Assembly: GCA_017439585.1 (NCBI GenBank)
Contig: JAFSIV010000002.1
Span: 1 to 64,000 of the forward strand
Direction of reading: 5' to 3'
Length of the DNA: 64,000 nt
DNA from: Clostridia bacterium
Lineage (GTDB): Bacteria; Bacillota; Clostridia; Oscillospirales; Acutalibacteraceae
Shown piece after piece: positions 18,212 through 20,503 of the stretch (within the stretch, counting starts at the first letter, position 1; every line of letters begins with the position of its first letter). The notes beneath the pieces are model-generated. The model saw only the letters and a list, made by a program, of their open reading frames with translations. It had not been told where the DNA came from and searched no databases. The position numbers and the translations under genes are program-made.

Positions 18212-18472
18212 ATGGACAATAAAATCAAACTTCATAATATTGATTTTGATGATTTTATAAAAGCTATTGACGAATGTAAAGGTGATGTTTATCTCGAAAC
18301 TGTTGAGGGCGATGTGCTTAATCTTAAATCTAAGCTTTGCCAGATGATTGGTCTTAGTACTATTTTAAAGAGCACCGAGATAGAAGAAGCAACCATTACC
18401 TGTTCAAATAAAGATGATGAAACAATGCTTTTCCGTTATAATCTTTACGGAAAACCTATGGAGGAAAATTAA
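18212..18472 (+). CDS. HPr-domain-like small protein (Crh-like candidate)
   Basis: The 86-residue protein aligns by eye with HPr: a core GDVYLETVEGDVLNLKSKL (about 24-42) corresponds to the HPr strand-helix region around Ser46, with Ser40 in the LKS motif. The active-site context HARPA is missing; His8 lies near the expected position but without the Arg. This resembles Crh, which is phosphorylated only on the serine by HPr kinase (hprK is at 33014). It has a consensus promoter and GGGAGG ribosome site and is followed with no gap by another small gene. Fold assignment is moderate; regulatory role is inference. Confidence 0.65.
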   Translation: MDNKIKLHNIDFDDFIKAIDECKGDVYLETVEGDVLNLKSKLCQMIGLSTILKSTEIEEATITCSNKDDETMLFRYNLYGKPMEEN

Positions 18473-18739
18473 ATGGCAGAATTTTTAACCTATAAAGGAA
18501 AACCGTTGGTTCGCTGTGAAAACGAGATTTATTATGGTGATATGGCTGAGCCTTATGTTGTTAGATTTGAAATTTTATCAAGTGATAATGATATAGCCTC
18601 AAAGGTTAGCGTTCAACTTTTAAAGAGTGATATACAGCTTGATATGAAAGATAGAATTGTTAAAGAAACAACCAAAAATTCTATGTTTGAAGCATTGGAT
18701 TTCGGTCTTGTTTGGCTTGAAAGAGCATTAAAGGGATAA
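18473..18739 (+). CDS. Conserved small protein of unknown function
   Basis: The 88-residue acidic protein (GKPLVRCENEIYYGDM, VSVQLLKSD, FEALDFGLVWLERAL) starts at the base after the previous stop, with GGAGG inside that gene's end as ribosome site. I recall similar short proteins in other Clostridia but no function. No signal peptide or membrane segment. Its strict coupling to the HPr-like gene suggests a shared role. Confidence 0.75.
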   Translation: MAEFLTYKGKPLVRCENEIYYGDMAEPYVVRFEILSSDNDIASKVSVQLLKSDIQLDMKDRIVKETTKNSMFEALDFGLVWLERALKG

Positions 18740-18772: not shown

Positions 18773-19207
18773 TTACAAATATTTTCTTAAATCAACTGCT
18801 AAATCAGCTTCAAGATTTATTAGCTTTTTGGTTAAATCCTTAGATTTTTCGTCTGCTGCGGCATATTTGTTAAGGTATTTATTTAAAGATTTAACGCCCA
18901 TATTACAACCGTCGGTTATAAGGTCGGCTATTGTGTTGTCGGTATAATTCATTTGAAGCTTAACCTCAGTTTTCATTTTAGCCATTGTTTCAGCAATAAA
19001 ATTAGGGTCTTTGCCTTCGTCACCGTATCTGCCTAAGAGCTCTTGAAGTTTTTTATCAATCTCATCGTGGCGGTCTTTGTTTGCGTGAAGAAGCTCTTTT
19101 AAATCCTTGTTTTCAACTCGGTCAATAACATCTGTTATGGATTTAACACCCATTTTAATGCCCGCATCGCATTCTCTTAAAAGCTTAATAGTATCTTGTT
19201 CTATCAT
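18773..19207 (-). CDS. Ferritin-like helical-bundle protein (DUF2383-like)
   Basis: ATG 19207 lies 8 nt after AAGGAG, giving 144 residues; an upstream GTG overlaps this ribosome site. The sequence is almost all helix, with two similar halves (CDAGIKMGVKSITDVID and GCNMGVKSLNKYLN) and charged linkers, as in the PA2169/DUF2383 family of four-helix bundles. No signal peptide and no obvious di-iron ExxH set, so metal binding is uncertain. It lies downstream of a candidate structured RNA on the same strand, and no good promoter of its own is visible. Confidence 0.75.
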   Translation of the reverse strand: MIEQDTIKLLRECDAGIKMGVKSITDVIDRVENKDLKELLHANKDRHDEIDKKLQELLGRYGDEGKDPNFIAETMAKMKTEVKLQMNYTDNTIADLITDGCNMGVKSLNKYLNKYAAADEKSKDLTKKLINLEADLAVDLRKYL

Positions 19208-19266
19208 AATGCACACTCCTTTTTAGTTATTATGTGCATTAAATTTCAATTTATAAAATAAAAAAA

Positions 19267-19280
19267 TCGCCCAAAGGCGA
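19267..19280 (-). terminator. Second tandem terminator
   Basis: TCGCC TTTG GGCGA is followed by seven T on the minus strand, about 35 nt after the first terminator. Confidence 0.75.
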
Positions 19281-19316
19281 CCGATTATAAAATACGATAA
19301 AATAAAAAAGAAATAA

Positions 19317-19359
19317 CTCCCAACCGATGTTTCTTTACACATCTCATACAGGTTGGGAG
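19317..19359 (-). terminator. Strong terminator of the candidate RNA
   Basis: A 9-bp GC-rich stem encloses a loop with a further 5-bp hairpin (GATGT/ACATC), and a T-rich tail follows on the minus strand. Confidence 0.85.
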
Positions 19360-19389
19360 CTACTTCTGTTCACTCTTAGTATCTAGCAT
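19360..19389 (-). CDS. Nine-codon mini-ORF before the terminator
   Basis: ATG at 19387-19389 encodes MLDTKSEQK and its TAG directly abuts the terminator stem. GAAAGAGAGG lies 11 nt upstream. A leader peptide overlapping a terminator is the classical arrangement for ribosome-mediated attenuation, but coding is unproven. Confidence 0.3.
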   Translation of the reverse strand: MLDTKSEQK

Positions 19390-19604
19390 CTTTATTTTAA
19401 CCTCTCTTTCTGTTGTTTGCCTTTACCTTTAAGCTTATTGCATTTTTTTAATATTAAATACTTTTAAACTTTATGTAAAGGATTTATATATACACTTTCT
19501 ACTAATCTTAAAACCTTCTTTAATCAAACCATCGCGATTTTATTTTAACTACTGATATTTAATCTTATTTTATTTTGTTTTAAGTTTTCGAAAGTGATTG
19601 GCGC

Positions 19605-19616
19605 TTACCTTCTCAT
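19605..19616 (-). CDS. Three-codon mini-ORF (Met-Arg-Arg)
   Basis: ATG AGA AGG TAA lies 6 nt after AAAGAGGTGA, a nearly perfect anti-SD complement. The ORF is inside the first hairpin of the candidate RNA. It could be a ribosome-loading or stalling element, or the SD-like sequence may simply be part of the RNA fold. Confidence 0.3.
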   Translation of the reverse strand: MRR

Positions 19617-19685
19617 CGGGTATCACCTCTTTCTTTTCTGTGTCTTTAATATACCATACTTTTTGATAGTTTGCAAGATGTAATA

Positions 19686-19780
19686 TTGTGCAAACTTAAC
19701 ACTATTTTCTTGTGCATATAGCAGAAATAAGTTTAATTTGCACAAAAAATATTGACATTTAAAAATAGATTTGATATAAT
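19686..19780 (+). promoter_or_regulatory. Aquaporin promoter with three TTGTGCA-type repeats
   Basis: TTGACA (19752-19757), 17 bp, TATAAT (19775-19780) form a perfect sigma-A promoter. Upstream are TTGTGCA at 19686-19692 and 19710-19716 and its inverse TGCACAA at 19739-19745, possible regulator sites between the two divergent promoters. Nothing else is seen in the 19677-19834 gap. Confidence 0.7.
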
Positions 19781-19834
19781 AAATTTGTTGAGTTGTTAAA
19801 ATTTTACACTAAAAAAGTATCAGGAGGGATTTTT

Positions 19835-20503
19835 ATGAATTTATTGAAAAAATGTACGGCAGAATTTATCGGAACCTTTGTGCTGGTATTTTTTGCTTGC
19901 GGAACTGCCGCTGTTGTTGGTTGTTCGGCTGAAAACGGAACAGGATATCTGCTAACAGCTCTGGCTTTTGGTCTTGTTATTGTGGCAATGGCGTATTCCA
20001 TTGGCAATATTTCAGGCTGCCATATCAATCCTGCTGTATCTATTGCAATGCTTGTTAGCGGTAAGCTTTCATTAAAAGATTTTATCGGTTATCTTGTTGC
20101 TCAATTTGCCGGTGCTACTGTCGGTGCGGCCGCATTGATGGCTTTCGTAGGTAAAGATAGCGGATTGGGTGCAAACGCACTTTATAAGGATAATATAGTT
20201 TTATCCTTGTTGATTGAGGTTATTCTTACCTTTGTATTTGTTATCGCTATTCTCGGTGTTACTTCCAAAAAGGAAAATGGCGCTGTATCCGGAATTGTAA
20301 TCGGTTTAACACTAACACTTGTACATATTCTTGGAATTTCTTTCACAGGAACTTCTGTTAACCCTGCTCGTAGCTTTGGACCTGCGCTTTTTGTTGGAGG
20401 TGAAGCACTGGCTTCTGTTTGGGTATTCCTGGTGGCTCCCTTGGTGGGCGGCGTTCTTGCAGCTCTTGTATATAAATTTCTTGATAGCAAGAAAGCAGAA
20501 TAA
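19835..20503 (+). CDS. aqpZ: Aquaporin Z-type water channel
   Basis: ATG 19835 follows CAGGAGGGA by 6 nt and gives 222 residues. Six membrane helices and the two half-helix motifs INPAVS (about 64) and VNPARS (about 186) define the MIP family. His in LVHILGIS, Thr and Arg around NPARS match the water-selective filter of AqpZ; GlpF would have a Gly in place of the His and NPARD. So a water channel is favoured over glycerol facilitator, although a glycerol kinase is present at 29059. Confidence 0.92.
   Translation: MNLLKKCTAEFIGTFVLVFFACGTAAVVGCSAENGTGYLLTALAFGLVIVAMAYSIGNISGCHINPAVSIAMLVSGKLSLKDFIGYLVAQFAGATVGAAALMAFVGKDSGLGANALYKDNIVLSLLIEVILTFVFVIAILGVTSKKENGAVSGIVIGLTLTLVHILGISFTGTSVNPARSFGPALFVGGEALASVWVFLVAPLVGGVLAALVYKFLDSKKAE

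Follow-up and report, generated by a model that had tools for sequence, protein, structure and literature searches.

In the window (the whole 64,000-nucleotide stretch of DNA that was analysed), the minus strand from 19641 to 19265 carries what looks, judged from its sequence and that of its relatives, like a genuine RNA gene, free-standing and unnamed, of which many uncultured Clostridia have copies. Its 5′ end, near 19641, is placed from the promoter TTGCAA-17-TATATT (19648–19676, minus strand), which has a TG before the second hexamer. A promoter scan gives this site nine of 12 consensus bases, and the scan by itself is weak proof, as it found five sites in the real sequence vs 4.2 in shuffles; what makes the promoter credible is its conservation in relatives, which also bears out an earlier, sequence-only reading of the window that had singled it out. 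The same reading had found no normal gene here and two mini-ORFs, the first behind a near-perfect ribosome site; both ORFs recur in relatives.

Downstream of the promoter, on the same strand, lies an extended Shine-Dalgarno (SD) sequence, GAAAGAGGTGAT (19622–19634), complementary to the 16S 3′ tail GGATCACCTCCTTTCT, followed by the micro-ORF here called ORF1, ATG AGA AGG TAA (M-R-R-stop; 19605–19616), and by a structured middle domain (19415–19604) that is present in the long forms of the RNA and nearly missing from minimal copies such as L165. The SD sequence of ORF2, AGAAAGAGAGG (19401–19411), was recognised by its pairing energy and by motif count, and precedes ORF2 itself, ATG CTA GAT ACT AAG AGT GAA CAG AAG TAG (MLDTKSEQK; 19360–19389). 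Two terminators in tandem, as had been proposed, close the unit: T1, a long terminator-like stem with the loop motif GTGTAAAGAAAC that was identified by covariation (about 19309–19368, limits drawn by eye), and T2, a canonical terminator found by a terminator scan (19265–19282). The nine-codon length read earlier for ORF2 stands; that its last codons lie inside the T1 stem had not been part of that reading. The predicted folding energy of the 380-nt RNA with T1 is −86.3 kcal/mol, vs a mean of −60.65 kcal/mol for 100 shuffles (sd 4.55; z −5.64). A long-range pairing of CCGATG with CATCGG, also part of the sequence-only reading, can be drawn in the window and in one relative (L002), yet it occurs in just three of 99 scored copies and is not a feature of the RNA at large.

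A nucleotide search of 60 genomes, including the window's own, gave a match in 13, four of which (G003, G020, G027, and G057) have a single short match of 31–46 bases that may be chance; leaving the window's own genome aside, six matched at the 5′ end and at the 3′ end separately, and seven genomes, counting the window's own, yielded both ends. Relatives match these ends at 71–96% identity, in line with the conservation that the sequence-only reading expected. Within the order, a model built on the 3′ module detected the RNA in 62 of 394 genomes, covering 34 of 168 genera and 11 families, the weakest matches, near 3e-4, being possibly due to chance. A broader model found it in 21 of 391 genomes of the class (13 of 222 genera), all but one of the 21 outside the order, and a draw of 299 genomes from the phylum gave a match in the window's own genome alone. 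As far as searched, the RNA gene is confined to one class, which to judge by contig titles is Clostridia. In a pattern scan of named genomes at least 117 stretches matched, and the 80 titles listed among the matches are all of metagenome-assembled or uncultured organisms, many from animal gut samples; most carry the label Oscillospiraceae, Ruminococcaceae or Clostridia, two are Lachnospiraceae, and a few have broader names. In the genome of the window, which is 87% complete, one copy is clear; the next match has an E value of 0.98.

Profiles of both halves yielded 159 distinct 3′ modules, 108 of them with a 5′ module in front, and ten loci hold more than one copy. At six loci (L044, L064, L084, L103, L129, and L141), adjacent copies follow one another on the same strand at about 440–800 bp, and every copy has a 3′ module of its own. 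Among the 108 copies the gap between the matches to the 5′ and 3′ profiles varies from nearly zero to 948 nt, with a median of 166, and in L165 just 73 nt separate the start of the −10 hexamer from ORF2. Because the gap can shrink to almost nothing, the constant core of the RNA gene is taken to be the promoter, ORF1, ORF2, and T1.

The start of ORF1 was recognised by pattern in 90 of the 108 copies with a 5′ module; the ORF has three codons in 66 of these, two in 15 (81 of 90 together), and another length in nine. Its commonest peptide is MYR (27 copies), and its stop is TAA in 71 of the 85 copies having a stop. About nine of the 18 copies with no start recognised by pattern lack an ATG there, as judged by eye. 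Under a strict pattern, two ORF1-type units are found in two of the 108 copies (L032 and L172), one unit in 72 and none in 34; a further copy, L042, shows two units by eye. In the window, the duplex with the 16S tail is worth −18.6 kcal/mol for the SD of ORF1 and −13.7 kcal/mol for that of ORF2. The median energies over the collected copies, −16.0 for ORF1 (n = 90) and −14.8 for ORF2 (n = 157), compare with −10.05 for 288 crudely called genes, each of which was given the best of its early starts; 5.2% and 8.7% of these genes are as strong as the ORF1 and ORF2 medians, respectively. The 16S tail used throughout comes from G044, a genome of the same order and the sole pattern match in 60 genomes, the window's own 16S end not having been found.

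ORF2 is the more uniform of the two. Its SD motif, GAAAGnGAG, is present in 146 of the 159 copies, and its start was found by pattern in 157, where the ORF mostly reads MLD[ITN]K... and ends inside the terminator stem. Nine codons make up ORF2 in 140 of the 157 copies, eight in ten and 10–15 in seven; 12 of these 17 departures look like the loss or gain of whole codons (the ten with eight and two with ten), and five do not. The stop is TGA in 78 copies, TAA in 60 and TAG in 19, and at this tenth codon the stem would permit TGG too, yet TGG occurs not once. Since most copies were collected with an ORF-shaped pattern, lengths were recounted on 40 loci fetched with covariance models: among their 41 hits, ORF2 has nine codons in 36, ten in three (the extra codon standing at the second place), and more in two. 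These loci overlap the 157 and the models were built from collected copies, which makes the recount a check rather than an independent proof. Codons 2, 3, and 5 are near-invariant even synonymously (TTA in 143, GAT in 155, and AAG in 151 of 157 copies), with the qualification that the collecting patterns favoured these very letters, and because these codons hardly vary, a constraint on nucleotides may explain part of the apparent coding signal. Taken together, both micro-ORFs look translated, as far as sequence can tell. Visual inspection of same-genus copies suggested an antiterminator pairing within ORF2 in some of them; the window lacks it, and the idea was set aside. Codons 2–4 have TTAGATACC-like letters, which we take to be the sequence of the 16S 790 loop, a match of seven to nine bases that could easily be chance.

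The stem of T1 covaries. Compensatory changes affect 17 of its 18 pairs, in an alignment of 82 of 107 non-redundant 3′ modules, and the covariation expected by the earlier reading of a structured RNA is therefore found among homologues. The loop motif is exact in 35 of 157 copies and present in a looser form in 58, vs three of 157 shuffled sequences; T1 was missing from the simple terminator scan of the window, probably owing to this long loop. T2-like hairpins occur in 91 of 152 copies, vs 14 of 152 shuffles, so that T2 is common without being universal. With the stop codon of ORF2 inside the 5′ arm of T1, the 3′ end of the RNA is laid out such that translation of a short ORF might compete with a terminator stem, as in a leader attenuator.

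The middle domain is an optional part of the RNA. Among the 108 copies, 82 with a middle of 60–330 nt were scored and folded more stably than their shuffles, with a mean z of −2.37 (47 below −2 and three above 0); the copy in the window (L001) has a z of −2.65. Helices were poorly aligned by MAFFT, both in an alignment of seven same-genus copies and in two alignments of the middle domain, on which RNAalifold gave four pairs for A5 (three compensatory) and eight for A4 (two compensatory). For this reason the closing helix was assessed by swapping arms between copies: over 92 copies, an arm pairs with its own partner at a mean of −22.0 kcal/mol, vs −17.3 kcal/mol with a swapped one (p = 5e-13). 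The own partner beats all 30 swaps in 12 of the 92 copies and ranks in the best tenth in 36. The first hairpin of the middle, P1, shows little covariation (p = 0.035).

Beyond what had been read earlier, a conserved divergent promoter and an operator-like region lie at about 19670–19785. The divergent promoter, TTGACA-17-TATAAT (19752–19780, plus strand), has all 12 consensus bases in the promoter scan of the window, and at least ten of the 12 are present in 85 of 87 copies, vs two of 87 shuffles. It stands 115–119 bp from the −10 hexamer of the RNA promoter in 46 of the 87 copies and at about 70 to 134 bp in the others. The consensus of 87 distinct promoter regions also contains two operator-like boxes, placed by eye on the minus strand of the window: box A, ATTTCTGCGTTTTGCACAAA, at about 19710–19728, and box B, TTTTGTACAATATTnCATATTG, at about 19670–19695, where it overlaps the −35 hexamer. 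The two boxes are alike, as TTTTGCACAAA and TTTTGTACAA show, and look like two predicted sites for one dimeric regulator. GTTGG-like letters near the divergent start are present in 67 of 85 copies, and a hairpin followed by a T run, about 30 nt into the divergent transcript, in 71 of 85, vs 19 of 85 shuffles; together with T2, such outward terminator-like hairpins flank both ends of the RNA unit. The window has no plus-strand terminator-like site up to 19850, and its divergent promoter reads through 19752–19837 (plus strand) into an aquaporin-family gene (MIP, 3.1e-53). Between the divergent transcript and the long RNA no copy-specific pairing was detected in 81 copies, where own partners gave −23.1 and swapped partners −22.9 (p = 0.55), a test of copy-specific fit that pairing through letters common to all copies would escape.

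Identity with a family of Rfam, which the sequence-only reading had suggested checking, is contradicted by a search of Rfam 15, which finds no family at this place. Over the whole window the single match is a tRNA elsewhere; from 19000 to 19900, with E values up to 5 admitted, seven matches appear, all under their gathering scores; and at 18 loci with copies the matches are to tRNAs, a T-box, and a ZTP riboswitch, all of them outside the RNA gene. Two well-known RNAs were considered and rejected. tmRNA has no match at the locus, the sole one above the cut-off being on contig C4 (160.3 bits), and 6S RNA has no covariance-model match at the locus or in the genome, although its model detects just five of 14 control genomes, and its absence elsewhere in the genome thus says little. 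A literature search, in a collection short of most subscription papers, returned no description of such an RNA or of its peptides. That no annotation was found for an RNA gene of dozens of genera is explained by the lengths of its ORFs, which at three and nine codons are far under those used by gene callers, and by the lack of an Rfam model.

Several known systems share parts of this architecture. Dual-function small RNAs such as RNAIII and SgrS are free-standing and structured, carry a small ORF, and end at an intrinsic terminator, as the RNA here does by comparison among its copies; their peptides are longer, and we know of no dual-function RNA with a start-stop ORF at its 5′ end and a nine-codon ORF in its terminator, or with such a divergent promoter. 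Type I toxin-antitoxin systems of the tisB/istR type likewise have divergent promoters, with one RNA that is long and structured and another that is short and ends at a terminator, whereas the present RNAs show no copy-specific antisense fit and no toxin-sized ORF. From OLE, ROOL, GOLLD, and raiA the RNA differs by its lack of an Rfam match, its shorter core, its micro-ORFs, and its optional middle. GOLLD, ROOL, and raiA are structured RNAs and the function of several is unknown, according to the accessible part of a recent source (PMC12286853). The present RNA gene could already be included among the 3161 candidate structured RNAs from intergenic regions that a large screen of gut RNAs, accessible in part, lists (Fremin and Bhatt, 2021; PMC8040213). 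The STAB-SD of cry3A in Bacillus thuringiensis, a strong SD near the 5′ end able to pair with the 16S 3′ end, is described in the available text as binding a 30S subunit that blocks RNase J1 (PMC4113751). A feature of this type is present here, as the SD of ORF1 lies near the inferred 5′ end and is complementary to the 16S tail; the STAB-SD, however, precedes a protein gene and involves no initiation, whereas here the site heads an ORF of two to three codons in a free-standing RNA that has a second site near its 3′ end. Minigenes (axe-txe; LEE1 ler) provide a further likeness, a tiny ORF in cis with proposed protection of the RNA: in the accessible part of the source, protection of its own mRNA is proposed for a two-codon minigene, and a strong SD and UAA are said to favour re-initiation and peptidyl-tRNA drop-off (PMC8708949). 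They differ in standing in the leaders of coding operons, and the same part of that source describes no second ORF fused to a terminator (PMC8708949).

Other explanations must be weighed against a free-standing, ribosome-engaged RNA. The sequence-only reading had offered, besides a free-standing RNA, a ribosome-controlled attenuator of the next gene on the same strand, which encodes a helical bundle (18773–19207, minus strand; probably starting at ATG 19207 rather than GTG 19216) and is DUF2383-like at E 9.2e-7 (29.4 bits, below the Pfam cut-off of 30.8). The position of this gene and the overlap of ORF2 with a terminator stem suit such a role; the comparison between genomes largely refutes it. 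The DUF2383-like gene was found in 18 of 40 genomes searched, and within the flanks fetched the RNA stands beside it in the window's genome alone (for one of the 17 RNA-free loci, L203, about 180 nt upstream were covered), so that the RNA can hardly be its attenuator. Moreover, T2 sits between the two, and the ORF downstream of the RNA lies on the same strand in 71 copies and on the opposite one in 70 (upstream, 67 and 76; crude ORF calls, some of them spurious), which leaves this option with very little probability. Many relatives (L190–L206) have, by eye, a GGTATACTA-like stretch shortly before the SD of the DUF2383-like gene, presumably resembling a promoter for a sporulation sigma factor, and this ATACTA-like stretch is possibly the gene's own promoter. 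Farther on, 18212–18739 (plus strand) holds two small ORFs; one has 86 aa, and the other, of 88 aa, has no Pfam match. A free-standing RNA, in turn, is well supported by its presence in many genomes, by the covarying stem, and by neighbours without a common family: among 75 proteins hand-picked from 231 candidate flanking proteins, 130 of which were listed, the top shared Pfam family has four members. The same scattered neighbours, the patchy occurrence within the order, and the ten multi-copy loci could also be those of a dispersed MITE-like repeat with its own promoters and terminators and no host function. Against this, the promoter, the ORFs, and the covarying stem are conserved, which points to selection acting on the RNA. 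The 25 of 114 Pfam families listed for the flanking proteins include none of mobile elements, and thin searches found no viral contig with the exact pattern, nothing in phages with one copy as query, and nothing in plasmids with the window's copy. A mere repeat is quite improbable on this showing.

The two remaining rivals accept a functional RNA and disagree on what its ORFs do. In one, unlikely in our estimate, the RNA is a translation sink or growth-limiting minigene, whose ORF of two to three codons ties up initiation and frees peptidyl-tRNA, so that cells would slow down when it is induced; the divergent promoter and the boxes would keep it off, and its action would resemble that of a type I toxin RNA. 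The traits linked to minigene toxicity in the accessible part of PMC8708949, namely shortness, a strong SD, and UAA, are the very ones conserved in ORF1, and the ORF1 unit is sometimes repeated; yet the minigene studied there caused no growth arrest, as far as that part goes, the divergent transcript does not look like an antitoxin RNA when own partners are compared with swapped ones, and both ORF2 and T1 are left without explanation. In the other, which we consider similarly doubtful, the RNA acts purely by structure or as an antisense, and its ORFs are unread by-products of motifs that bind protein or RNA (purine runs like the 16S tail, TTAGATAnnAAGA). The near-invariant nucleotides in codons 2, 3, and 5 of ORF2, the covarying stem that spans its stop, and the conserved T1 loop would all be expected of such an RNA, and it is the behaviour of the ORFs that speaks against it: at the stop of ORF2 all three stop codons occur but never TGG, its length changes mostly by whole codons, and two separate micro-ORFs each have a strong SD.

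The best reading, held tentatively and at somewhat below an even chance, is that a free-standing RNA is transcribed from one of two divergent promoters and engages ribosomes at both of its ends. On this reading, a 30S subunit or ribosome on the strong 5′ site would read two to three codons, stop, and start again, and would thereby shield the 5′ end from a 5′–3′ exonuclease in the manner of a STAB-SD or a minigene. A second ribosome would read ORF2, and its translation would determine which of T1 and T2 ends the RNA; since the stop codon of ORF2 lies in the rising arm of T1, folding of T1 and translation of ORF2 should exclude each other. Ribosome control of the terminator itself, with no downstream gene involved, is a possible form of this arrangement. 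Preserved in this way, the RNA, with a folded middle where it has one, might then have an action in trans that would depend on the loading of ribosomes or report it. This is the least certain step, and it cannot rest on the middle alone, because minimal copies keep almost none of it.

More speculatively, and less likely than not, the family may represent a new class of RNA gene that works by ribosome occupancy, in which minimal ORFs serve as a sensor or sink of initiation, and competition between a 3′ ribosome and a terminator sets the end of the RNA. If the ribosome-engaged reading is true, these Clostridia would possess a natural RNA that is organised around start-stop translation and not around the making of a protein, and what conserved minimal ORFs do could be tested directly.
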